Shown here: positions 26,260 through 64,000 of the stretch, piece by piece
Layout: each line of letters starts with the position of its first letter
Numbering within the stretch: position 1 is the stretch's first letter
NCBI RefSeq assembly: GCF_016595415.1
Contig: NZ_JAENIO010000001.1
Location: forward strand, 1 to 64,000
DNA: 64,000 bases
Direction: 5' to 3'
From: Roseibacillus ishigakijimensis
GTDB lineage: Bacteria > Verrucomicrobiota > Verrucomicrobiia > Verrucomicrobiales > Akkermansiaceae
Notes under the pieces: model-generated
What the model saw: only the letters and a program-made list of their open reading frames with translations
What the model was told of the DNA's origin: nothing
Database searches by the model: none
Translations under genes and position numbers: made by a program

Positions 26260-26452
26260 ATCACTTTCTTTCCTCCAAGGCGCTCCGGCCCGGATCTCCC
26301 AGTAGAGGTGCAGCCAAATCGGCCTTCCGTCCAGTCGCGGATGCAAATTTTTCTCTTTTCCCTCCTCTTGCGAAGGCCATGACTACAAGTTCACTGCCAT
26401 TCTGCAGCCATTTTCAAATCGAGCTTTTCCCGCCGCAGGGTTAGGCTTGGCC

Positions 26453-26977
26453 ATGGCCATCGAACAATACGAAGGAAGCTCTCCCCAGCTGGGCGAGGGT
26501 GTTTTTATCGCTGCCAGTGCCGACGTCATCGGCCGCGTCACCCTCGGCCCCCGGGCCAGTATCTGGTATCAGGCCACCCTTCGTGGCGACATCAACGACA
26601 TCGTCATTGGCGAGGATTCCAATGTGCAGGACAACGCCGTGCTCCACCTCTCCGATGACCTACCCTGCATCATCGGCCGCGAGGTGACGGTGGGGCACTC
26701 CGCCATTGTGCACGCGGCCACCGTCGAGGATGGAGCCCTCATCGGGATGGGCGCGATCGTGCTCGATGGCTCCGTCATCGGGGCCGAATCCATCGTCGGC
26801 GCGGGAGCCCTGGTGACAGGAAGGACCATCGTCCCCCCCCGTTCCCTGGTGCTCGGCTCCCCCGCCCGCGTGGTGCGCACCCTCAGCGAGGAAGAGGCCC
26901 GCATGGGACGCAATCTGGCAGCGAAATACGTGGCCCAGAGCCGAAAGTTTCTCGCCCGCGGAGGAGAACCGCGCTAA
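26453..26977 (+). CDS. gamma-class carbonic anhydrase family protein
   Basis: The 174-aa left-handed beta-helix protein has repeated hexapeptide turns and the family's Arg (ATLRGDIN), Gln/Asp (VQDNAVLH) and His ligands (VGHSAIVHAA). Trimers of this fold bind Zn or Fe at subunit interfaces. Members hydrate CO2 or act as YrdA/PaaY-like proteins of uncertain activity. ATG at 26453 is preferred over a TTG two codons upstream. The nuclease gene follows after 21 bp. Confidence 0.92.
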   Translation: MAIEQYEGSSPQLGEGVFIAASADVIGRVTLGPRASIWYQATLRGDINDIVIGEDSNVQDNAVLHLSDDLPCIIGREVTVGHSAIVHAATVEDGALIGMGAIVLDGSVIGAESIVGAGALVTGRTIVPPRSLVLGSPARVVRTLSEEEARMGRNLAAKYVAQSRKFLARGGEPR

Positions 26978-26998: not shown

Positions 26999-27472
26999 AT
27001 GAAAGTCGAGCTCATCCAAGTCGAACCCATCGCCCTCTTGCCCACCCAAGCCGGATGCGCGGTCTTCCTCGGCGACGGCAAAAAAGTCATCGTCTTCTAC
27101 ATCGAACCCGGCATCGGAGCCTCCATCAATGCCGTCCTGGCCGGCCAAAAGCCCCCCCGCCCCCTCACCCACGACCTCTTCGCCCAAGTGCTGGAAGCCT
27201 TTGGAGCCACCGTAACCCACGTCGTGATCTCGAAAGTGGAAGACGAAATCTTCTACGCCCATCTCCATCTCAGCGCCCAGAACGAAATTATGGAAAAAAA
27301 AATCATCGAGGCCGATGCGCGCCCCTCCGACTGCATCGCCCTCGCCGTGCGCCAGGACGCCCCCATCATGTTCGTCAAGTCGGTCTGGGAAGCGCAGCCC
27401 GATATGTCTCACGTTCTGGAAGAACTGCGCAAGCAGGGGATGTCCGACGAAGGCGAAGACATCCCTTTCTGA
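26999..27472 (+). CDS. bifunctional nuclease (BFN, DUF151) family protein
   Basis: The 157-aa protein shows the BFN pattern: V-F-L-G-D-G-K-K-V-I-V-F-Y-I-E-P, G-A-S-I-N, R-P-L-T-H-D-L, then E-A-D-A-R-P-S-D-C-I-A-L-A-V-R. In plants and some bacteria the family has DNase and RNase activity, and in Thermotoga a structure is known; the bacterial role is unclear. It is likely co-transcribed with the carbonic anhydrase-like gene. A long AT-rich hairpin begins 6 bp after the stop. Confidence 0.88.
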   Translation: MKVELIQVEPIALLPTQAGCAVFLGDGKKVIVFYIEPGIGASINAVLAGQKPPRPLTHDLFAQVLEAFGATVTHVVISKVEDEIFYAHLHLSAQNEIMEKKIIEADARPSDCIALAVRQDAPIMFVKSVWEAQPDMSHVLEELRKQGMSDEGEDIPF

Positions 27473-27611: not shown

Positions 27612-28820
27612 ATGCCCCATCCCACGAGTTCTGTCGTTCCGGAATACCTTAGCGAAGAAATCCTTCTCAACCCCGAGAAGAGAGAGTTCCCCCCCTTCAG
27701 CCTGAGTCGACTGCTTGGCACCGTGTTCAAGCCCACCCAAGGATGCAAGGTCTGTATTCTGACGGACTTTGAAGAGCCGGAAAACCTCATCAAGGACTTC
27801 CATTTCCTTTCGGAGGAGGGCTTCGAGGTGCAGAAGAACGCCTACCACCATTTTTACCAGGGTCTTAAAAACGGGGTGCTCGATGAACTGGGAATGACTG
27901 GGGGCGAAATGTTTGCCTATCGCTACACCTACGGCTCCAATCTCGATCTGAAAGACGAAGTCTGGGACACCACTGGCAAGCAGCTCTCTCTCGACCGCGA
28001 TATTTATCCCGAATACGACCTCATCCTCTGTATTTCCACTTGGTCGGCCACCGCTCCTCTCACCGCCAAGTGCAAGGAATTCAATTTCCGCGGTGCCACC
28101 ATGCACGGGATGAATGACGTCATTCTCAACTCCGGCTTGGCCGTTGATTACGAGGAAGTCTCTGCCGATGCGGAGAAGATCCGCCTGGCGATGAACCATG
28201 CCGATTCCATCGAGATCGACTTTGCTCTGGAAGACGGCACCGTGCTGACCGCCACATTGGAGTTGGAGGGGCAGGAAGCGCAGAAATCCCACGGGCTCTG
28301 TCAGGGGACCGCTCCTGATATCGCCAACCTTCCGGCAGGTGAAATTTACTACGTCCCCCGTGATGCCAACGGCAAATTCCCGATGAAATACGAGGATGGC
28401 ACCTTGGGCGTGCTCGACGTGGTCAATCGCAATGTCATCAAATCCACCCTCATTGCAGGAGATCAGGCCACCATTGATGAGCACAACGCCCGCTTGGCCG
28501 ACGATCCGATGACCGGCACCCTGGGCGAACTCGGATTTGGCACCCAGGTCCTACCTGTTTCCTATCAGGATATTCAGGATGAGAAAGTGCTCGGCACCTG
28601 CCATCTGGCGACGGGCCGCGACGACCATCTCGGAGGTGACATTGTGCCCGAGATGTTCAAGAAGCACGAAAACTCGACCCACGACGACATCCTCTTTGCC
28701 CCGCACAAAACTCCCAACTTCAACGTCAAGGAAGTGCGCATGAATCGAGGCGGGCAGCAGGAAGTGATCATCGAGAACTTCCGCCCAAGTCAGTTCATTA
28801 TCCATGCGATTTCCGGATGA
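27612..28820 (+). CDS. M29-like aminopeptidase family protein
   Basis: The 402-aa protein lacks a signal peptide. Its C-terminal half holds the spaced acidic and His residues of the M29 (aminopeptidase T/PepS) family: LPAGEIYYVP, GTLGELGFGT, G-T-C-H-L-A-T-G-R-D-D-H-L-G-G, and S-T-H-D-D-I-L-F. These match the Glu, Glu, His, His-x-Asp metal ligands by position. The N-terminal half is divergent. A cytosolic metallo-aminopeptidase is the best guess, with moderate confidence; a related non-peptidase role is possible. A ribosome-binding-like CAGGG precedes the ATG. Confidence 0.7.
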   Translation: MPHPTSSVVPEYLSEEILLNPEKREFPPFSLSRLLGTVFKPTQGCKVCILTDFEEPENLIKDFHFLSEEGFEVQKNAYHHFYQGLKNGVLDELGMTGGEMFAYRYTYGSNLDLKDEVWDTTGKQLSLDRDIYPEYDLILCISTWSATAPLTAKCKEFNFRGATMHGMNDVILNSGLAVDYEEVSADAEKIRLAMNHADSIEIDFALEDGTVLTATLELEGQEAQKSHGLCQGTAPDIANLPAGEIYYVPRDANGKFPMKYEDGTLGVLDVVNRNVIKSTLIAGDQATIDEHNARLADDPMTGTLGELGFGTQVLPVSYQDIQDEKVLGTCHLATGRDDHLGGDIVPEMFKKHENSTHDDILFAPHKTPNFNVKEVRMNRGGQQEVIIENFRPSQFIIHAISG

Positions 28821-28936: not shown

Positions 28937-29320
28937 ATGCCCGAAACCCGTTTCCACAAAGTCCAGCTCGACGAATTGCCTGAAATCGAATGCTGCTGCG
29001 GCACCACCCGCCGTGGCTTCGCCCACCTCCCGGATGCCCCGGCCTCCATCCACCTCCTCGACGTCAAGGACGAGCCCACTTGCCACTACCACCAGAAGAC
29101 CGCCGAAATCTATCTCGTGCTCGAAGGCGAAGGCCATCTGGAACTCGATGGTGAGCTTATCCCCGTCAAACCCCTTTCTTCCGTCCTAATTCAGCCCGGC
29201 TGCCGCCACCGCGCCGTCGGACAGCTCAAAATCATCAACATTCCCGTTCCCAAGCACGACGAGAACGACTTTTTCTACGAGGAGAACGCCGTGGCCCCGG
29301 GAGAAAGGCCCGTGCACTGA
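28937..29320 (+). CDS. single-domain cupin protein
   Basis: The 127-aa protein is a one-domain cupin: the first motif reads CHYHQKTAEIYLVLEGEG (His, His, Glu metal ligands) and the second PLSSVLIQPGCRHRAVG (His). A Cys triplet lies near residue 20. Such proteins bind a metal ion and act as dioxygenases or sugar/thiol-binding enzymes; the specific substrate is not shown. A longer in-frame start at 28817 overlaps the previous stop codon, but its translation is Gly/Arg/Pro-rich and looks non-coding. It lies 9 bp before the ovothiol-type methyltransferase gene. Confidence 0.75.
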   Translation: MPETRFHKVQLDELPEIECCCGTTRRGFAHLPDAPASIHLLDVKDEPTCHYHQKTAEIYLVLEGEGHLELDGELIPVKPLSSVLIQPGCRHRAVGQLKIINIPVPKHDENDFFYEENAVAPGERPVH

Positions 29321-29329
29321 AATCACCCC

Positions 29330-30052
29330 ATGAACATTTACGAAAGCGACAAACTCCTCGCCGAATACCTCCTCTTTCACTTCGCCCGCCCGGAGGAAAT
29401 CCTTCCCTGGGAGTTCGGTCCGCGGGAAGCCCTCGACTACCCGGTGCGGGTCACGCAGCATTTTTCCCCCGGCCAAGGGGGACGCGCACTCGACCTCGGC
29501 TGTGCGGTGGGACGCTCGACTTACGAGCTTTCTCGTAGCAGCCAGGAGGTGATCGGCATCGACTACTCCCATGCTTTCATCACGGCGGCCGAAGAAATCA
29601 AGGCAGGTCCCCGCCGCATTGCCCGCCTGGAAGAAGCCCATCGGGCCACCGAACTGTTGGTGAGCTTGCCTGCGGGAGTGGACCCCTCGCGCTGCCAGTT
29701 CGAACAAGGTGACGCCATGAACTTGCGCGCGGATCTGGGTCGTTTCGACCGGGTGCTGGCCGCCAACCTCATTTGCCGCCTGCCCGAGCCGGAAAAATTC
29801 CTCGCCCGCCTCCCCGACCTTGTGCATCCCGGCGGAGAAGTGGTCTTGGCCACTCCCTGCACCTGGTTGGAGGAATTCACTCCTCCCGGGAATTGGCCCC
29901 CGGGCCACACTCTCGATTGGCTGAAGGAAACCCTGTCCCGCGACTTCGAGCTACGGGCGGAGGCTGACGAGCCCTTTCTCATCCGCGAAACCGCCCGCAA
30001 GTTCCAATGGACCGTCGCTCTGGTGACCAAGTGGCAACGGCGCGAGGGGTAG
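29330..30052 (+). CDS. putative 4-mercaptohistidine N1-methyltransferase (OvoA C-terminal type)
   Basis: The 240-aa SAM-dependent methyltransferase has motif I ALDLGCAVGRSTYELS (about residues 53-68), the following GIDYS acidic end, and NLICRLPEP. The opening NIYESDKLLAEYLLFHF and L-P-W-E-F-G-P-R-E-A-L-D-Y-P-V-R are typical of the domain that follows the sulfoxide synthase in OvoA and methylates 5-thiohistidine to ovothiol A. Here it stands alone, without the sulfoxide synthase. The adjacent cupin gene suggests a linked thiol pathway, which is an inference. Confidence 0.8.
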   Translation: MNIYESDKLLAEYLLFHFARPEEILPWEFGPREALDYPVRVTQHFSPGQGGRALDLGCAVGRSTYELSRSSQEVIGIDYSHAFITAAEEIKAGPRRIARLEEAHRATELLVSLPAGVDPSRCQFEQGDAMNLRADLGRFDRVLAANLICRLPEPEKFLARLPDLVHPGGEVVLATPCTWLEEFTPPGNWPPGHTLDWLKETLSRDFELRAEADEPFLIRETARKFQWTVALVTKWQRREG

Positions 30053-37894: not shown

Positions 37895-38779
37895 TCACTT
37901 GACTGCAATGCGGTAGAGGCCAGCAGTCTGCTGCATGGAGACCCGGCCTTGGGTCTCCTCGCCAGTGGCAGTCACCTCGGCGACCTCACTCCAGTCCCCG
38001 CTGATCGCATCCCTTTTCATGATGGCGTAGGTCGTGCCCGCCTGAGAGCGCCAGCTGATCACGAACTCCTCTTCCTCCACTTCCGCCGCCAGGATTTCCA
38101 GCAGCGCGACCTCACCGGCCACTTGCAGCACCCCAACCCCATCCAAATCGAATCCGGCGGATCCGGTGGTCGGATAGGGATCGTAGATAGGATCTTCCGA
38201 GCTATCGAGGCTCAGCCCATCGCCCACCACATCGACGAGGCGGACAAAGGAGACCTGCGCCAAGCCCAGCTCCGCCAAGTCAAAAGGCGTGCCGTAGCCT
38301 GCGCGGTATTTCCCTGCCAAGCCCGTGATGTTGGTCGCATCCACGGAGCCAAAGGCCGGCACCGGAGCGGCAGTGAGCGAATCGCTGGCAAAACGCATGA
38401 AATGAACGCCATCAACCGAAACCTCAACATAAGCCAGCTCGAGGAAGGTGTCCGAAAAACTATTCTCAAAAACCGCGAAATCCGGGCCCTCACCATCGCC
38501 AATAGGCTGCGCAAAACCCAGCACGATAGAACCACCCCGCCCCAAGGTCACGATGGAACTGTAGCCCCCCACCGGGCCGAGGGCATTCTCCGGCGTCTGG
38601 AAGCTCGCACTGACCTCCGCCCCCACCTGATAGGAAACGACCTCGCTGGCCCACGCCACAAAGCGCATGTCGCTGGCGGATAGAGCGGTCGAGCCCTCGC
38701 GAGTAGCGGGCGGCTCGTAGGGCCCCGCCAGAGCCGGGGAAATGGTCAAAGCAATTGATAGCAGTTGTCTTTTCATCAT
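37895..38779 (-). CDS. secreted protein of a cobalamin-regulated operon
   Basis: The 294-aa protein has a signal peptide (MMKRQLLSIALTISPALA). Its body contains DFAVFENSFSDTFLELAYVE, V-S-V-D-G-V-H-F-M-R-F and GLAGKYRAGYGTPFDLAEL. I associate this set with surface proteins encoded beside BtuB-like receptors; this is recollection. The start codon overlaps the receptor's stop (TAATG), so the two are translationally coupled. It is the last gene of a three-gene operon behind a cobalamin riboswitch. A role in capturing or handling corrinoids at the surface is an inference. The C terminus has a beta-sandwich segment of about 75 residues like those in PVC secreted proteins. Confidence 0.75.
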   Translation of the reverse strand: MMKRQLLSIALTISPALAGPYEPPATREGSTALSASDMRFVAWASEVVSYQVGAEVSASFQTPENALGPVGGYSSIVTLGRGGSIVLGFAQPIGDGEGPDFAVFENSFSDTFLELAYVEVSVDGVHFMRFASDSLTAAPVPAFGSVDATNITGLAGKYRAGYGTPFDLAELGLAQVSFVRLVDVVGDGLSLDSSEDPIYDPYPTTGSAGFDLDGVGVLQVAGEVALLEILAAEVEEEEFVISWRSQAGTTYAIMKRDAISGDWSEVAEVTATGEETQGRVSMQQTAGLYRIAVK

Positions 38780-40761
38780 TAAAATCGAAGGCGCAGTCCG
38801 CACTGCCACTGGCGGCCGGGCGCGGGGTAAAATTGCGTCGCCGCCGCATAGCTCGCGTAGTGGCGATCCAGCAGGTTGGTGACTTTTCCATAGAGCAGGC
38901 AATCCTCGCTGAGCTGCCAATCCACCCCGAGATGAAAGACCGCCCGGGCCGGAAGCCGCTGCCCCTCGTTGCCAAAGTCATCCCCCTGCCAGCTGGAACT
39001 GAGAAACTGCCCCCCCAAAGAGACCTCCCAATCAGCGGCAGGCGCAAAGGCCAGATTGCCAAAGAGAGAATGCCGGGGAACTAGGGGCAACTCCCGATCC
39101 GCGAACTCCCCCTCGCGCAGTCGGGCCTCCGTCCAATGATAGCGCAAGTCCGCCCGCCAGCGCTCGCCCTCCCACTGAGCAAAGAGCTCGCCACCAATCC
39201 TCGCGGTCGCCGCCAGATTGCGATTCAAGTTGTCTTGAAAAGCGATTTCATCCTCCAGCCAAGTGCCAAAAAGGGCCATCCCTCCTTGCAGAAGCCCCCA
39301 TTGAGCGGAAAACCCCGCCTCCACACTGTGCCCCCACTCCGGCTCCAGTGCGGCATTGAAAGGAACGTCCAGCAGAAAGCCCTGATAGCCCGCGATCTCA
39401 TCCAAAAGCGGGAAGCGATAAACCCGTTCGTAGCGCAACCAGGCCGACGACTCGGGCGCAAACTCATACTCCAATGCCGCCTCGGCAGCCCACTGCAACT
39501 CCCGGCCTTTTTCCGAAAAAGTTTCCTCCGGACTGGGGAAAGCCCCCAGGCCCCGGGAGTCTGCCCGCAATTGATAGCCCTCTCCACTCGCCCCCGCGCG
39601 CAGCGACCAGCCCCCCCCCAACTCGTAGCGGCCCAGCAAAAAGAGCGCGGCCGACTCCCGCGCCAGCTCCGCCCGCTGCCGGGGCAGTTGCCGCTCCTGG
39701 TCCGAATATCCCCGGAACTGCAGGCGCTCCGCCCGCCACCGCACCCCTCCCTCTAGCTCCAGGCGAGCCCCCTTCCACTCCCCCACCATTTCTCCCTGCC
39801 CCTGGCCCACCTCGTTGTCGGCGAAGAATCCGCCCTCGTTGATGAGGCGCTCCTCCCACGAACCGCTGGCCCGGGCACTCCCCTGCCAGGCCCCCGCCCC
39901 TTGCCAGCGCAACAGCCCGTCGAGCTGGCTCGTCCTCCGCTCCGTCACATACAAGTCCTCAAAGCCAGTCACATAGACCGCACTCTGTCGCGGATCGGAC
40001 TGGAAGCGGTCGAAACCCAATCCACCTGGATTCTCAAAGCGCACCTCGCTCGCGCTGAAAGCCAAGCGGCTTTCGACCGCCGGTCCGGAGGAATGCTGCA
40101 GAGACAGCGAAAAGCTCCCCTCCTCCCGTCCCGAGTGGTCCCGATAGCCCGCACTCCGGTAGTCCTCCCCGCGGAAGGTCCAGGCACCCTCCGCGAGAGG
40201 CGCTTGCAGGGACAACGCGCCCGAGCGAGTGCTCTCGCTACCCAGATAGGCCGAAAGCTCGCCTCCCCGCTCGACGGGCCCGGCCTCGGTTTGCAGGGCA
40301 ATCACCCCCGCGAGGGCCGCGCTGCCATAACGCACCGTGCGGCTTCCGCGCAAGACACTCACCGACTCGAGACTTTCCAATGGCACACGCCCCCACTCCG
40401 GGGAAGACAAGTCCGGCCGATTGAGCGGCAAGCCATCGAGCAAAATCAGAGTCTTGCGCAAAGAGCCATCCCCAAAGCCCCGCATAACGGGAGACCCACT
40501 ACGGGAATTCCCGTAGACAGAAAGAAAGGGAACACCCGCCTGCGCAGAGAGGAAGGAGAGCACCGAATCCGAACGGGAGTCTTGCAACTCTTCCCGCCCG
40601 AAGCTCTCCCCACTCCCTGGAAAGGCAAGGGAATCCGTAAGCCCTTCTTCCTCTGCCACTGCGGCCACAGTAGACGGCGGCAGCGACACTTGGCCCGGGA
40701 GTAGAGCTCCCGAACCCACCCAGCAAAGGAGAGAAAGGCTGAATCCAGTCAGCCGAATCAT
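38779..40761 (-). CDS. TonB-dependent outer-membrane receptor, BtuB-like
   Basis: The 660-aa protein has a signal peptide, a plug domain (about 50-165) with VPFLSVYGNSRSGSPVMRGF, LLDGLPLNRPD and V-S-V-L-R-G-S-x-x-V-R-Y-G-S-A-A-L-A-G-V-I, and a beta-barrel ending in an aromatic C terminus (L-R-L-R-F). The TonB-dependent plug signature is clear. Substrate is assigned from the upstream cobalamin riboswitch and the neighbours, making BtuB-like B12 import the most likely role. The ATG at 40761 gives the signal peptide. It is preceded by a PEP-CTERM gene with a 19-bp gap. Confidence 0.88.
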   Translation of the reverse strand: MIRLTGFSLSLLCWVGSGALLPGQVSLPPSTVAAVAEEEGLTDSLAFPGSGESFGREELQDSRSDSVLSFLSAQAGVPFLSVYGNSRSGSPVMRGFGDGSLRKTLILLDGLPLNRPDLSSPEWGRVPLESLESVSVLRGSRTVRYGSAALAGVIALQTEAGPVERGGELSAYLGSESTRSGALSLQAPLAEGAWTFRGEDYRSAGYRDHSGREEGSFSLSLQHSSGPAVESRLAFSASEVRFENPGGLGFDRFQSDPRQSAVYVTGFEDLYVTERRTSQLDGLLRWQGAGAWQGSARASGSWEERLINEGGFFADNEVGQGQGEMVGEWKGARLELEGGVRWRAERLQFRGYSDQERQLPRQRAELARESAALFLLGRYELGGGWSLRAGASGEGYQLRADSRGLGAFPSPEETFSEKGRELQWAAEAALEYEFAPESSAWLRYERVYRFPLLDEIAGYQGFLLDVPFNAALEPEWGHSVEAGFSAQWGLLQGGMALFGTWLEDEIAFQDNLNRNLAATARIGGELFAQWEGERWRADLRYHWTEARLREGEFADRELPLVPRHSLFGNLAFAPAADWEVSLGGQFLSSSWQGDDFGNEGQRLPARAVFHLGVDWQLSEDCLLYGKVTNLLDRHYASYAAATQFYPAPGRQWQCGLRLRF

Positions 40762-40780
40762 GGCGCGATCTTGATGAGGG

Positions 40781-41422
40781 CTAGCGGCGGCGACGGAGCA
40801 AACCTGCCGTCGCAGCCCAGAGAAGAAGAGCCCCACTGGCGGGCTCGGGCACGGCCGCAGCCGCAGCGTCCAAGGTCAAATCGGGCCGGTAGGCACCGAA
40901 GCTCCAGACATCCCAAGCCCCATCACTCAGGAGCCGGCCGGAATCGCCGAAAGCAACAGCCTCCGCCCCACTGGGGGAGAAGACCCAGTCCGTGGGCAAG
41001 CTCTCTCCCCCCCCGGCGATGGCCACCGGAGTGTCCACCAGGCCATTGTTCGGGTCGTCATCACCCGCAAAGCCACCAGAAAGATAGTAGCCCCAGAAAT
41101 CGCTCCCACTACTAGCCGCCGTGTAGGTGCTCCCATCCTGGGAATAGCTGACCGAAGAAAGGAAGCCGGAGAAGGAGACGGAGAGAAAAGGCACGGCCTC
41201 AGCCACCGCCAGAAGCATCTCCGCCCCGGAAGCCTCGCCATCCCAGCGGTAGCCCCAAGCGAAAGTATCAGGCGCGAGGGCATCGCCAAAATCGAGGATC
41301 AAGGTCGCTTGCTTGGCGCCCGTTCCCACAATGGTCAGGAGGTCATCGGTCGTTGCTACTGTCGCTGCCGAAGCCAAGGAAGAAGCGGCGGCCCAAGCCG
41401 TCAAAGTCAGGGTCAATTTCAT
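40781..41422 (-). CDS. PEP-CTERM protein, first gene of the cobalamin operon
   Basis: The 213-aa protein has a signal peptide (KLTLTLTAWAAASSLASA), a body with ATLILDFGDALAPDTFAWGY and R-W-D-G-E-A-S-G-A-E-M-L-L-A-V-A-E-A, and a C-terminal V-P-E-P-A-S, hydrophobic helix, L-L-R-R-R-R tail. It should be exported and processed by exosortase. Being the first gene after the cobalamin aptamer, it is probably produced when corrinoids are scarce and may help bind or present them at the surface, by analogy with accessory B12-capture lipoproteins in Bacteroidetes. That role is an inference. Confidence 0.8.
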   Translation of the reverse strand: MKLTLTLTAWAAASSLASAATVATTDDLLTIVGTGAKQATLILDFGDALAPDTFAWGYRWDGEASGAEMLLAVAEAVPFLSVSFSGFLSSVSYSQDGSTYTAASSGSDFWGYYLSGGFAGDDDPNNGLVDTPVAIAGGGESLPTDWVFSPSGAEAVAFGDSGRLLSDGAWDVWSFGAYRPDLTLDAAAAAVPEPASGALLLWAATAGLLRRRR

Positions 41423-41558: not shown

Positions 41559-41702
41559 GGATGAAGTATTCGGACTCCTGGCTCAAACCGCCGTCCCGCC
41601 TTCACCTCCAATCATTTGGAAATTGGCTGATGGGACTTTGTCACCAGTTACCGCAGCGCGTCTGTTCCGGATTCGCACCGGATTCCATGCACCCCTGCAT
41701 CA
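41559..41702 (-). promoter_or_regulatory. cobalamin riboswitch aptamer
   Basis: On the minus strand the region contains GAGCCAGGAGTCCG (plus 41571-41584), the B12 box, and GGAATCCGGTGCGAATCCGG (41667-41686) followed by A-A-C-A-G-A-C-G-C-G-C-T-G-C-G-G-T-A-A. Both are diagnostic of the adenosylcobalamin aptamer. GATG (41701-41698) and CATC (41563-41560) can close the P1 stem. It lies about 135 nt upstream of the first operon gene. The leader between holds an alternative hairpin around AACGGGA/TCCCGTT and an AAAGGAG sequence that may serve as the expression platform. Other parts of 41423-41825 hold nothing recognised. Confidence 0.9.
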
Positions 41703-58798: not shown

Positions 58799-59065
58799 AT
58801 GGCCAATCCCAGCCCGTCAGAAACCCTCCTCACGGAACTGGCCCTCGTCTTGCGGCAAACACGAGAAGAGGCCGGGTTGTCCAAGCGAGAACTGGCGCAA
58901 CGAGCGGGCTGCATCACCACCACCATCACCCGCCTGGAGAGCGGCGTGCAGAATCCCGGCCTAGAACTCCTCACCCGCATCTCCTTCGCCCTCCACACCC
59001 AGCCCTCCCACTTGCTGGCAAGGGCTGAGAGCCGGGTGAACCTGAAAAGCGAGGAGGTGACTTAG
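58799..59065 (+). CDS. XRE-family transcriptional regulator
   Basis: The 88-aa protein is almost entirely one Cro/CI helix-turn-helix domain: L-R-Q-T-R-E-E-A-G-L-S-K-R-E-L-A-Q-R-A-G, then T-T-I-T-R-L-E-S-G-V-Q-N-P-G-L-E-L-L. There is no sensor domain. It is divergent from the protease operon and probably represses it and itself through the palindrome at 58775-58788. It overlaps the convergent macroglobulin gene by 4 bp. Confidence 0.9.
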   Translation: MANPSPSETLLTELALVLRQTREEAGLSKRELAQRAGCITTTITRLESGVQNPGLELLTRISFALHTQPSHLLARAESRVNLKSEEVT

Positions 59066-62000
59066 CGCACCTCCACCGCCACGCTGGCGCTGTGGGCCGC
59101 GAACTCGGGGGCATACATGCAGCGAATCTCGGCCAGACCGGTTTGATAGACCCCGCGATGCTGCACCCGCACGCTGGTCTCGAAGACATGGGTGCCCGCA
59201 GGCAAGTGGTCGATGAAGAAGTGGCTCGCGGTGTCCCGGGTCATCTCGTAGTAACCGAATCCGTCCTGCCAGCGGTAGCCGCTCAGGACATTGACCGGCT
59301 CGGTGCCGCTGCCGCGCTGATCCTTGAGGTGGACGAACTCCATGGCGCGGTCGTTGCGAAGAATGAGACGGGTGACGAGCTCATCGCCCACGGCCACCGG
59401 ACCGGTCACCGGCTCCAGCACCTCGCCTTGGTCGGTGTGGCGTTTCACAAAGAGCCTTTTCTCCAGCTGGAGTTCCTCGCCCGCCTCGGAGGTGACCTTC
59501 CCCAAGTCCTCCAGATACTGCCAATGCAAGCTGGCCCAGGCCACGCCCTTGTCCTTTTTGTGCAAAGTGATCTGCCCCAGCGCAGGCTTCACCTCCGCAC
59601 CCATGAGACGCTCCTCATACATCCCGGTGCCGGGCTCGACCTGCTCCGGGACCACCTTCTCCCCCCCGAGCGTGACCTCTAGCAATTCCTTGGAAGAAAG
59701 AAGGTTTCTCCCACCCATGAGCAGAGCGTAGACGGCATCGGCGGTAGCCTTGGTGGTCTCCCAGTCGCCCACTTGCTTCTGCTTGATGAGCCAGACCTGG
59801 CAATCCTCCACCGCTTGCTCGTCCTGATCGACTTCGGCAAAGGCCTCGATCATGAGAGCCTGACTCTCGATGGGAGCCTGCCACCACCACCAGCCGCGCT
59901 CGTCATTCCAGCGCATGCCCTGCTCCTCGTCGACGAGGGCATGCTCCTTCAACGAACGAGTGATGAGCTGGGCCGTTTCGGTCTCGCCGAGGCGGTGCAA
60001 AGCCAGCGCGGTGTGGGCGCGCGACATCCGATCGCTCAGAGAGGTCCAATGCTCCTTGGCCTGCGCAACAAAGTAGTCGAAGGCGACCTGATCGCGGGCG
60101 GTGAGCTTCTTGTCCCGCAGGAAAAAGCTCCGCATGTAAAGGTGATGCGCCACCCCCTGGCTAAGATTGTTCTCGTCGAGATCGCCATTCCTACGGATTC
60201 TCTCGTAACTCTCACTCAAATCCGCATCGAGAGCGGCCAGCGCCTGCAAGGCCGGGCTGAGGTCGCTCTCCACCCCAAGGTGGCGAAGACGCGCAAAACC
60301 GGTGACGAGATAGCGGGAGATGTAGGCATTGCCCCGGCCACCCGGAAACCACGGCCAGAGCCCGTCCTCGCCCTGCATCTCGCTCACTTTCTGCAGCGCC
60401 TGTTCCAACTCGAAAGTGAGCTTGTTTTCTTCAAAGAGCAGCCCCACCCGGCGGCGGGCTTCCGACTCGTTCTTCGCCTCCGCCAGCCAGGGTGTTTCCT
60501 CAAGGAGCAAGCCCTTGAGGTCCTCGTTTTTCAGCAAAGGACTGTCGAGAGCCTCTGTGTTTTTCCACAGGTCAAAGATACGGCGAATCTTCGCATCGGA
60601 GTTCGCGATGTGAGCGGCCAGCGCGTTGGCGTAGTAGCGATTGAAGGTCTGCTCGGCGCATTCGTGGGGAAATTCCATCAGATAGGGCAGCGCCATGACC
60701 GCATACCAGGCCGGTTGCGAGACCACCTGCAAATGCACGAACTGATTCTGCAAAGTCTCCGAGTCCCCGCTCGCGAGCAGTTTGTCGAAAGCGAACTCCT
60801 TCTCCCCGGCATCGCGAATGGGCAGCGCCATCGACTCGGTGACGAGCACGCGGCGCGGCAGCACAGGCAACCAGCCCTCCTCGCCATCGGTCAGGCTCCC
60901 AGTCGTGGCTGTGGCTCGATAACGCAGGAAGCCCGCTCCATCGGGCACGGACAATCGCCAGCTCACCGTGCGGCTTTCTTTGGCCGGAATCTCAAAGGAC
61001 TTTTCCAGCTCCTCCACCCCCAGCGCGGCGTTCCGGCTCTCGTCCGTGGCCGCGTCTGCGAGGTCCAACTTCGCCACCCCGCTCTGGGTTTCTTCGCTCT
61101 GATTAGTGACCTTAACGGTGAACTCCAGCTCATCGCCCTCCCGCAGGAAACGCGGCGGATTGGGCTGCACCATCAGATCCTTGGCGGTGACCACTTCGCT
61201 TTCCAGCAAGCCACTCCGCAACCTGTCGTCATGAGCGAGAGCGAGAAATCGCCAAGTGGTCAAAGCCTCCGGGATGGTGAAACTGATGCGCACCCGCCCC
61301 TCCTCATCGCTGACAAGGTCGGGAAAGAAAAAGGCCGTTTCGTTCAGATTGGTGCGCACGGACACCGGAGCTCCCGCCTCGCCATCCTCACCACTCCCAT
61401 CTGCATCAGAACGAACAGCCACCGACTTCATTATCCCTTCCTCAGCAACAGGTTCCGCCGCAAACGAATCCACCTCGGCCTCTGCCACCCTTCCCCCAAG
61501 CATCATGGGTGCGGAAGGCATAGCCATAGCCCTGGATCGCCGGACTGGCAATCCAGGGTCCGAGCCGAATCCCGTTTCTCCAAAGAAAAACCCACGGTAA
61601 ATGTCCCCCAGGGAATGCCACCGCCCGCTTGCGAAATGACTCTGGGCCTCAAAGTACTCGAAATCCGAGCTGAAATCCGGACTCAGCCAAACTCCGCTTT
61701 CCCGGCGATAAAAAGAGGCCAAGTCCCGGAAGCGATGACTTGCAAAGGCATCCAGCGAAGCATCATACATCGTGGCCACCATCTCCGCCACCGCTGCCTC
61801 TCCGCCAGCCCCTTCCACCACCGCCGTCCAGCTCTCCTTCGCGCCGGGTTCCAGCTTGTTGACCATATGCTCCCAACGCACGGTGAGCTCTTGATTGGTC
61901 CACGGCACGGAGACCTGGCGGGTGGCCTGATGGAAGCGATTCTGGCTCACCTGAAAAATCGTCACCGTGAAGCCACCGCGCTGCTTCTCTGTAACCGGAA

Positions 62001-64000
62001 AGCGAATCATCTCCTGCGTGCGCCCGCCCTGGGTCCAGGTGCGCTGGAGAAGCTGCTGATCCTGATAAATCTCAACCACCGCCCGCGCTTCTTCATGACC
62101 ACTGCCCCAGAGCAAGGAGAACTCTTCTCCCGGCTCGACCATATGCTCCGGTGCAACGGTGTAGAACGGCACCATGGTCGGAAAGTCCTCCCCCGCCGGG
62201 TCGAGCACTTGAATCATGCGGAAGGCCTTCACTTCGCGCCCGTTGGCATCCTTGCTCGTGAGAACGAGCCGATAAGCGCCCGCGTCCAAAGTCGCCGCCA
62301 GCTCCGCCAGTCCCGCTTCCTCACCTTCTGCGGAGGTGGAAAAAGCGAACTCCCGAACCATTTCTCCCAGTTCCCAATCCTCTGGTCTCTCAATATCGCG
62401 GGCTCCATAGACACCCTCCCCAATACCAGCAAAAGGATCAATATTGCTTCCTGATTGAGCACGCGGGCAAGTTTCCGGCTCTTGCAGGCGATGGATTTTC
62501 ACCACCCCCTCAGCCGCGCGCGGCTCCCCATCGTGGGAAAGCGTGCGCACCCTCACCGCGACCGGCTCTTCCGTCGTCAGCCACGCATCCGTCTCCAGCG
62601 AAGCCTGCAGGGTGGTGTAAGCGACCGAAATCGTGCGGCTGGCACTGCGGGTCTCACCCGCTCCATCCGTGATGTCCACTGTGACGAGGTAATCGAAAAC
62701 CGGCTCCTGCTCGACGGGAACCTCCGCATCCGGCTTGGCGGTGAAACTCAGCTCGAACTGCCCCTGCGCGTCGGTCTCCCCCTCACCTTGGGCAATTTCC
62801 TCCGCGCTGGAATGCGGCAGGTCCGAGCGCCACCAGCCGATCCAGTCCGGCCAACGGGTTTGCCGGGTGACTCGCCAGGCCACCTTGGCCCCATCGACCG
62901 CTGCCCCGGTGTAAGCCTCCGCGCGGGCCGTCACCTTCACCTCTTCCCCCAGCGCCGCTTCATTGCTAGCGGCCTCAATTTCCGAGAAAAACTTGGGCCG
63001 CTTGTATTCCTCCACGCGAACAGAGGTGCTGCCGGAGATCTCTTCACAGACAATTTGATAGCGGCCCAAAGCCCGACCCTGCGGCGCGGGGAAGGCTCCC
63101 GCCACCGAACCCCGCGCATTGGAAGTCAACGACAACTGCGCCACTTCCTCCCGGTTCACATCGAGCAAACGCACCGTCACCGCTCGATCCGGAAGGGTCG
63201 CGTAATCTCCCTCAGCCTGATTCCCCTGCGCCAGAATGGCCTTGAAATGAATGGTCTGGCCCGGTCGATAAATGGCCCGGTCGGTGAAGAAGACGCTCCG
63301 CTGAAAACCCTCCTTCTCCGGCCGCGAACCCTGATTGGCCCACGAACGCGCCACCGCCCGATCCTGCTCGCGCTGCGCAATCACCACATAGCGACGCTCC
63401 ATTTTCGGAAAAGCGAAGTATCCGGATTCATCCGTATGTTTCTTAGAATTTGCGAACACCTCGCCATGAACCGGCTGCCACCAAGCCTTCACCTCCACCC
63501 CTGACTGCGGGGCGCCGGTGACCGCATCGACCACGAAACCATCCACCCCACCCTGCGGCGCTCGACGAGTCACCAGCGCCAAGCGCGTGACGTGAATCCC
63601 CTGACTCGCCACGACATTGTCCTCGATCGAAAAATCCTCTTTTGCACTCGCAACCAAGAAATAGTAGCCGGGATCCACATCTTGCGGGGCGGTCACCTGG
63701 CTCGTGCGCCGCGCATAGTCGCCCTCATCGGGAAGCTCCTCGACCCAGCTCCGAGCCGGTTCTTTTTGCAAAAGTCGGCGCAACTCCTCCTCATCAAGCG
63801 TCGCCTCGGACGCCAAAGCCTCCTCTCCTTCCCCAAAGGTCATGGCATAGAGACGAAACCACACGCGACCCACATTCTTGTGCGTGACCTGAATCGCTTC
63901 CCCAGCCGGAGTCCACTGCGTCTCCGTCGCGAGCTGCAATTCTCTCTCCTCCAGCTCCTTGACGACATTCCCACAAAGAAGACCGTAGGGGTGCTCGGGA
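59062..64000 (-). CDS. alpha-2-macroglobulin family protein, 5' end outside the window
   Basis: At least 1645 residues are present and the frame is open to the window edge, so the N terminus is missing. The order is MG-type beta-sandwich domains (with an F-V-V-D-A-V-T-G-A-P-Q-S-G-V-E-V segment and Y-R-P-G-Q-T-I-H-F-K), then A-L-T-T-W-R-F-L-A-L-A-H-D, a thioester motif C-A-E-Q (codons at 60649-60660, in P-H-E-C-A-E-Q-T-F-N-R-Y), an alpha/alpha thioester domain and a C-terminal receptor-like domain. Bacterial homologs trap proteases in the periplasm. The large reverse-strand ORF over 59773-62454 is a shadow. No pbpC-like partner is visible here. Confidence 0.88.
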   Translation of the reverse strand, partial: PEHPYGLLCGNVVKELEERELQLATETQWTPAGEAIQVTHKNVGRVWFRLYAMTFGEGEEALASEATLDEEELRRLLQKEPARSWVEELPDEGDYARRTSQVTAPQDVDPGYYFLVASAKEDFSIEDNVVASQGIHVTRLALVTRRAPQGGVDGFVVDAVTGAPQSGVEVKAWWQPVHGEVFANSKKHTDESGYFAFPKMERRYVVIAQREQDRAVARSWANQGSRPEKEGFQRSVFFTDRAIYRPGQTIHFKAILAQGNQAEGDYATLPDRAVTVRLLDVNREEVAQLSLTSNARGSVAGAFPAPQGRALGRYQIVCEEISGSTSVRVEEYKRPKFFSEIEAASNEAALGEEVKVTARAEAYTGAAVDGAKVAWRVTRQTRWPDWIGWWRSDLPHSSAEEIAQGEGETDAQGQFELSFTAKPDAEVPVEQEPVFDYLVTVDITDGAGETRSASRTISVAYTTLQASLETDAWLTTEEPVAVRVRTLSHDGEPRAAEGVVKIHRLQEPETCPRAQSGSNIDPFAGIGEGVYGARDIERPEDWELGEMVREFAFSTSAEGEEAGLAELAATLDAGAYRLVLTSKDANGREVKAFRMIQVLDPAGEDFPTMVPFYTVAPEHMVEPGEEFSLLWGSGHEEARAVVEIYQDQQLLQRTWTQGGRTQEMIRFPVTEKQRGGFTVTIFQVSQNRFHQATRQVSVPWTNQELTVRWEHMVNKLEPGAKESWTAVVEGAGGEAAVAEMVATMYDASLDAFASHRFRDLASFYRRESGVWLSPDFSSDFEYFEAQSHFASGRWHSLGDIYRGFFFGETGFGSDPGLPVRRSRAMAMPSAPMMLGGRVAEAEVDSFAAEPVAEEGIMKSVAVRSDADGSGEDGEAGAPVSVRTNLNETAFFFPDLVSDEEGRVRISFTIPEALTTWRFLALAHDDRLRSGLLESEVVTAKDLMVQPNPPRFLREGDELEFTVKVTNQSEETQSGVAKLDLADAATDESRNAALGVEELEKSFEIPAKESRTVSWRLSVPDGAGFLRYRATATTGSLTDGEEGWLPVLPRRVLVTESMALPIRDAGEKEFAFDKLLASGDSETLQNQFVHLQVVSQPAWYAVMALPYLMEFPHECAEQTFNRYYANALAAHIANSDAKIRRIFDLWKNTEALDSPLLKNEDLKGLLLEETPWLAEAKNESEARRRVGLLFEENKLTFELEQALQKVSEMQGEDGLWPWFPGGRGNAYISRYLVTGFARLRHLGVESDLSPALQALAALDADLSESYERIRRNGDLDENNLSQGVAHHLYMRSFFLRDKKLTARDQVAFDYFVAQAKEHWTSLSDRMSRAHTALALHRLGETETAQLITRSLKEHALVDEEQGMRWNDERGWWWWQAPIESQALMIEAFAEVDQDEQAVEDCQVWLIKQKQVGDWETTKATADAVYALLMGGRNLLSSKELLEVTLGGEKVVPEQVEPGTGMYEERLMGAEVKPALGQITLHKKDKGVAWASLHWQYLEDLGKVTSEAGEELQLEKRLFVKRHTDQGEVLEPVTGPVAVGDELVTRLILRNDRAMEFVHLKDQRGSGTEPVNVLSGYRWQDGFGYYEMTRDTASHFFIDHLPAGTHVFETSVRVQHRGVYQTGLAEIRCMYAPEFAAHSASVAVEVR

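Follow-up and report, generated by a model that had tools for sequence, protein, structure and literature searches.

A separate OvoM-like methyltransferase and its conserved 402-residue partner in Verrucomicrobiota hint at an undescribed way of making ovothiol-like thiols

Introduction

Thiol and selenium compounds related to ovothiol are made by homologous enzymes that combine DinB and FGE domains. According to one account (PMC12631010), the canonical ovothiol route begins with the OvoA sulfoxide synthase, and a truncated OvoA lacking the methyltransferase domain has been reported next to an acetyltransferase. Among the loci collected here, a gene for a PatB-family C-S lyase, a candidate OvoB, lies directly 3' of ovoA on a plasmid of Sulfurovum mangrovi (L230). 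A literature search, with most subscription journals outside its coverage, returned no report of ovothiol biosynthesis in Verrucomicrobiota.

The window analysed here is a stretch of 64,000 nucleotides from Roseibacillus ishigakijimensis that contains a gene for a methyltransferase (MT) related to the C-terminal domain of OvoA. The locus points to a possible, hitherto undescribed route to ovothiol-like thiols, in which a 402-residue protein encoded upstream of the methyltransferase is the candidate for the part otherwise played by OvoA.

Results

Organization of the locus

The original prediction described a separate ovothiol-type methyltransferase lying 9 bp behind a cupin gene, and both the separation and the 9-bp gap hold (Table 1). 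The gene for the 402-residue protein lies one gene 5' of the cupin and two genes 5' of the methyltransferase. An alternative start of the cupin, an ATG at 28817, overlaps the stop of the 402-residue protein gene. No sulfur-handling gene is kept beside the pair of methyltransferase and 402-residue protein among the loci examined. Elsewhere in the window, a TonB-dependent receptor gene lies downstream of a cobalamin riboswitch on the same strand and is likely a B12-controlled uptake gene, and a separate reading frame of about 1625 residues encodes alpha-2-macroglobulin domains.

Table 1. Features of the window, with coordinates, strand, and the evidence or position noted for each.
Feature	Coordinates	Strand	Evidence or position
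Gamma carbonic anhydrase-like hexapeptide protein	26447-26977	+	5' of the 402-residue protein gene, same strand
Bifunctional-nuclease-domain protein (PF02577)	26999-27472	+	Directly 5' of the 402-residue protein gene, same strand
402-residue putative metalloenzyme of NicX/M29 fold, conserved MT partner	27612-28820	+	Fold model, co-inheritance
Cupin, 127 aa, local accessory	28937-29320	+	Cupin_2, E 1e-9
Separate OvoM-like SAM methyltransferase (MT), 240 aa, Cys149 in NLICRL	29330-30052	+	TIGR04345, E 7e-48
TonB-dependent receptor	38779-40836	-	Downstream of the riboswitch
Cobalamin riboswitch	41566-41686	-	Rfam RF00174, 63 bits
Alpha-2-macroglobulin-type ORF	59062-63939	-	MG2, A2M, bMG10

The separate methyltransferase

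The protein is a class I SAM methyltransferase whose match to TIGR04345 (ovoA_Cterm) extends over the whole profile with a score of 163.3 bits, just below the curated cut-off of 170, which is passed by some separate homologues in other genomes. Its nearest solved structures are OvsM (9bxh, 6e-45), OvoM (9bxl, 1e-34), and OvoA (8khq, 8e-34). The gene is present as a single copy in its own genome, a draft of 4.14 Mb in 192 contigs that is 95.2% complete. A TIGR04345 match at E <=1e-39 occurs in 156 of the 189 genomes of the order set, indicating that the gene is not a chance open reading frame; in a table counted by hand, the sole OvoA-length fused frame among these 156 genomes is that of G002. 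TIGR04345 matches are absent or weak in the 26 order-set genomes of genus g2, which is presumably Akkermansia.

The original prediction set this protein beside the methyltransferase domain of OvoA; by its phylogeny it is not such a domain minus its other half. A quick, midpoint-rooted tree of 86 rows has all 71 separate Verrucomicrobiota methyltransferases on one side and the 15 OvoA, OvoM, and OvsM rows on the opposite side (SH-aLRT 95 each), placing the protein outside the OvoA/OvoM clade, on its sister side. The signature residues of OvoA, OvoM, and OvsM are kept in the methyltransferase apart from position 149, the Asp of the NLIDRL motif, which is Cys. This replacement is found in all 30 separate methyltransferases of the first alignment and in 52 of 58 in the wider one; across 179 rows, references and duplicates counted, position 149 is Cys in 153, Asp in 23, Glu in 2, and a gap in 1. 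A clade-specific insertion near residues 26-34 is missing from the four OvoA, OvoM, and OvsM rows compared. To judge from the alignments, Cys149 may reflect a change of specificity in the separate methyltransferases. As a marker of the 402-residue partner it was rejected, because several partner-linked methyltransferases keep Asp and the partner-less genomes G335 and G390 have Cys.

Searches for OvoA and related synthases

A search of the genome with the TIGR04344 profile yields two weak matches scoring 41 and 39 bits (cut-off 400), both falling on FGE-domain proteins, and thus OvoA was not found, in agreement with the absence originally predicted. The three FGE-domain proteins of this genome show no DinB_2 domain, which OvoA proteins do show in the same scan. 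A DinB+FGE sulfoxide synthase is accordingly neither fused to the methyltransferase nor found in the genome, and there is no FGE protein with DinB_2 that could serve as a SenA-, OvoA-, or EgtB-type companion synthase in the manner of the ovoselenol pathway. The original prediction had left two options, a synthase elsewhere or a different enzyme making the thiol substrate, and had named an intact OvoA elsewhere as the finding that would overturn it. The search with TIGR04344 and for FGE-domain proteins with DinB_2 found no such synthase in the 95%-complete draft, and the second option is favoured by the comparative evidence presented below.

Within the order set, OvoA scores above the TIGR04344 cut-off in a single genome of 189. 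A further 14 genomes have matches of 103-139 bits, which are probably EgtB-like or FGE-only proteins. At 1e-20, TIGR04344 finds nothing in six one-contig genomes that contain both the methyltransferase and its partner (G006, G049, G056, G100, G103, and G123).

The cupin

The cupin scores 38.1 bits with Cupin_2 against a gathering score of 27.2, which places it in this Pfam family. Its sequence shows an HxHx4E...H pattern, which we take to be that of the metal cupins, and the nearest solved chain is the uncharacterised 4h7l (1e-17). The original prediction drew attention to the cupin next to the methyltransferase and proposed that their co-occurrence be checked. Counted by hand, the cupin lies directly before the methyltransferase in 10 of the 189 order-set genomes, all of genera g1 and g3, and it adjoins the methyltransferase in 9 of 80 named loci. 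Cupin homologues are present in 144 of the 189 genomes (1e-3) and are adjacent to the methyltransferase in g1 and g3 only, so the cupin was rejected as the defining partner; the conserved partner is the 402-residue protein. Many genomes with both the methyltransferase and the 402-residue protein have only weak cupin matches, indicating that the cupin is not essential to the pair. In G117 and G146 the cupin remains with the methyltransferase, and the 402-residue protein is encoded on a different contig. We regard the cupin as an accessory added locally in two genera.

Distribution of the 402-residue partner

The 402-residue protein was picked out by clustering the neighbours of the methyltransferase in the 80 named loci. 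In 28 of these loci, counted by hand, its gene lies upstream of the methyltransferase and on the same strand; some loci begin too near the methyltransferase for the gene to be visible. Cultured carriers among the loci include Haloferula rosea (L106) and Luteolibacter marinus (L100). The protein is present in 159 of the 189 order-set genomes, with 61-88% identity to that of the window among the rows listed. When the order-set genomes are classed by hand, 152 have both proteins, five the 402-residue protein only, three the methyltransferase only, and 29 neither. The five protein-only genomes are drafts of 68-86% completeness, and a weak match to the 402-residue protein is present in two of the three genomes with the methyltransferase only.

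The association extends beyond the order. In the phylum set (n = 288), a separate methyltransferase without OvoA occurs in 44 genomes, and precisely these 44 have a partner match above 400 bits; 16 other genomes have matches of at most 81 bits, several of the 44 have a second such match, and these low-scoring matches are taken as paralogues. In the class set (n = 305), hand counts give the 402-residue protein in 128 of the 133 genomes with a separate methyltransferase and no OvoA, and in none of the nine genomes with OvoA. The five genomes with neither OvoA nor partner beside their separate methyltransferase are G509, G535, G540, G557, and G628, and two with the partner and no listed methyltransferase (G466 and G552) contain a broken or split one. 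Among 127 of the 128 class-set genomes with both genes (G592 was left out), the partner is directly upstream of the methyltransferase, on the same strand and within 200 bp, in 67, and lies within 2.5 kb upstream in 82. Neither plasmids nor viral contigs yielded a relative covering 80% of the 402-residue protein; three partial plasmid matches have about 28% identity, and two of them are annotated as aminopeptidase.

Fold and putative metal ligands of the 402-residue protein

The 402-residue protein matches no Pfam or NCBIfam family at E 1e-3. A trace of Peptidase_M29 (PF02073; E 0.048, 12.9 bits) falls below the gathering score of 27, and searches of the PDB by sequence, with the protein or its profile as query, and of PHROGs returned no match. 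An AlphaFold model built with 29 homologues has a pLDDT of 88 and a pTM of 0.85, and its best fold match is NicX (7cn3), with a Z score of 23.9 and an rmsd of 3.9 over 302 aligned residues at 12% identity. The NicX fold is followed by the aminopeptidases AmpT (2ayi, Z 17.5), PepS, and AmpS (Z 16.4-17.5) and then by the crocagin proteins CgnE and CgnB (Z 12-13); a family absent from this list is not thereby excluded.

Residues E244, E306, E324, H331, H357, and D359 are invariant in the 29 homologues and have aligned counterparts in a genuine M29 protein (L221, PF02073 263 bits). The M29 ligand set, which we take to be Glu, Glu, His, His, and Asp, is kept at the corresponding positions. The iron ligands of NicX are given as His265, Ser302, His318, and Asp320 in PMC7910607. 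Positions for a NicX-type His/His/Asp set are plausible in the 402-residue protein, in a region where pLDDT is low in the loops near the site (336-342 and 353-356), which adjoin the putative ligands. The fold matches together with the invariant ligand positions indicate that the modelled protein looks like an active metalloenzyme, be it hydrolase or oxygenase. A second family of about 361 residues from other Verrucomicrobiota (L213-L219) is related to the 402-residue protein, has the same ligand positions, and shares with it an RSEHLGG motif; the one member scanned falls below the PF02073 gathering score.

Exchange between OvoA and the 402-residue protein

A fused OvoA was found in 19 genomes across the order, phylum, and class sets, and none of the 19 contains the 402-residue protein. 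Eleven Verrucomicrobiota OvoA proteins have a C-terminal methyltransferase domain that keeps the signature, position 223 being His in six, and no separate methyltransferase is present in any of these 11 genomes. G002 fits the pattern too, since its OvoA is intact and both the separate methyltransferase and the 402-residue protein are missing. The signature residues are also mostly kept in five OvoA proteins of other phyla. Seven full-length OvoA proteins from families f9 and f16 form a single clade within Verrucomicrobiota OvoA, and all seven genomes keep a separate methyltransferase. The synthase domain of these proteins scores 653-688 bits with TIGR04344 (five scanned), and the methyltransferase domain has Glu at position 149 and altered residues at 176, 178, 220, and 224 in all eight rows, G301 included. 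The separate methyltransferases of three f9/f16 genomes that were aligned keep the signature save at 149, plus Lys for Arg at 219 in two. The altered domains may keep some activity, because their TIGR04345 scores are still 273-327 bits. In G301 (L059), the altered domain occurs with no separate methyltransferase and OvoA is split into two overlapping frames, which may point to a pathway in decay or to an error in the sequence.

The simplest reading of the lost signature in the f9/f16 OvoA proteins and the retention of the separate methyltransferase is that the latter methylates in their stead. On genomic grounds, the simplest reading for the other approximately 130 genomes is that the 402-residue protein stands where OvoA would. 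A Fisher test of the exclusion between OvoA and partner gives 4e-9 for the 140 class-set genomes with a separate methyltransferase, kinship being ignored. Mapped on the methyltransferase tree, the exchange requires two changes, of which one falls on supported branches, and a sign test that accounts for phylogeny lacks power. With one or two evolutionary events behind the swap, the exclusion was not accepted as statistical proof. An OvoA of Streptomyces with an adjacent second methyltransferase was considered as a parallel case and discarded, since the adjacent protein scores 17.6 bits with TIGR04345.

Discussion

The pattern of decay in the OvoA domains and the exclusion between OvoA and partner suggest that the separate methyltransferase probably performs ovothiol-type N-methylation and that the probable source of its substrate is the 402-residue protein, standing in for OvoA. 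A partner fold closest to that of an O2-using Fe(II) enzyme is in keeping with this. We infer that the two act in one pathway, on a 5-thiohistidine-like substrate that the partner makes or releases. The full reading, in which the methyltransferase is the N-methylating step of an OvoA-free ovothiol-type pathway and the 402-residue protein provides the histidine thiol, is put forward tentatively, as one with nearly an even chance of being correct. The 402-residue protein would most likely supply what OvoA makes elsewhere, a histidine thiol, or a closely analogous compound; the methyltransferase would use SAM to methylate an imidazole nitrogen of it, and the cupin would be an accessory found in this and one neighbouring genus. 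A bolder form of the proposal, unlikely but not far-fetched, is that the 402-residue protein is a new metalloenzyme, C-S bond-forming or sulfur-transferring and unrelated to OvoA, EgtB, and SenA, whose product is 5-thiohistidine or a closely analogous compound; together with the methyltransferase it would constitute a convergent, second route of ovothiol type, widespread among Verrucomicrobiota.

A different metabolite is the alternative that carries real weight, doubtful as it appears to us: the methyltransferase and the 402-residue protein would cooperate on a compound that is not a histidine thiol, and the OvoA pattern would be a coincidence in one or two lineages. The separate clade in the tree, the Cys in place of Asp149 in 52 of 58 proteins, the insertion missing from the OvoA, OvoM, and OvsM rows, and the few independent exchange events are consistent with such a change of substrate. 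It is harder to reconcile with the remaining signature residues being kept, with the Asp149 of some partner-linked methyltransferases, and with the retention of the separate methyltransferase in 7/7 genomes where OvoA is unbroken but altered in its methyltransferase domain. The kept M29 positions also make a hydrolase possible, and the 402-residue protein might then free 5-thiohistidine from a peptide or conjugate for salvage and subsequent methylation. We consider this improbable: every M29-type ligand position is invariant and the AmpT, PepS, and AmpS folds are among the matches, but NicX is the clearly closer fold, and a strongly conserved single-copy gene would better suit core biosynthesis.

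The two remaining explanations concern the identity of the methyltransferase and the completeness of the data. That the methyltransferase is OvsM, the 5-selenohistidine N-methyltransferase of the ovoselenol pathway, is suggested by OvsM being the closest solved relative, and is nevertheless very unlikely given that OvsM groups with OvoA in the tree and has Asp149, and that an FGE+DinB synthase is lacking from the genome. An artefact, in which OvoA exists and is merely missing from the 192 contigs of a 95%-complete draft, is hardly credible when the TIGR04344 cut-off is passed in a single genome of the 189 in the order set and the six one-contig genomes with both genes have no match either.

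If the tentative reading of an OvoA-free pathway is correct, a lineage-wide pair of genes has kept the last step of the route and replaced the first, so that a potent antioxidant would be reached convergently. Even with another substrate, a strongly conserved family that no Pfam or NCBIfam model matches, and that is tied to a sister methyltransferase subfamily, is a tractable lead. The label 'putative 4-mercaptohistidine N1-methyltransferase' does not imply OvoA in these bacteria.

Comparison with known systems

The methyltransferase is homologous end to end with OvoM and the C-terminal domain of OvoA (TIGR04345; 8khq, 9bxl), sharing the SAM motif and most signature residues, but it is unfused, belongs to a sister clade, has Cys149 and an insertion of its own, scores below the cut-off, and occurs in a genome without the sulfoxide synthase. 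It resembles OvsM (9bxh), its closest solved relative, in being a separate protein, whereas OvsM falls on the opposite side of the tree and has Asp149, and no FGE+DinB synthase was found here. The 402-residue protein has its best fold match in NicX, a 2,5-dihydroxypyridine dioxygenase (7cn3, 7cup) and mononuclear Fe(II) enzyme that uses O2, from which it differs in its low sequence identity and in that the pyridine-degradation context is not seen here. It has fold and ligand positions in common with the M29 aminopeptidases AmpT, PepS, and AmpS but falls below the Pfam gathering score for that family. Compared with the OvoA-OvoB-OvoC route described in PMC12631010, the likeness would lie in the final N-methylation of 5-thiohistidine by this methyltransferase family, whereas in the pathway proposed here a non-homologous, metalloenzyme-like protein would replace the DinB+FGE first step.
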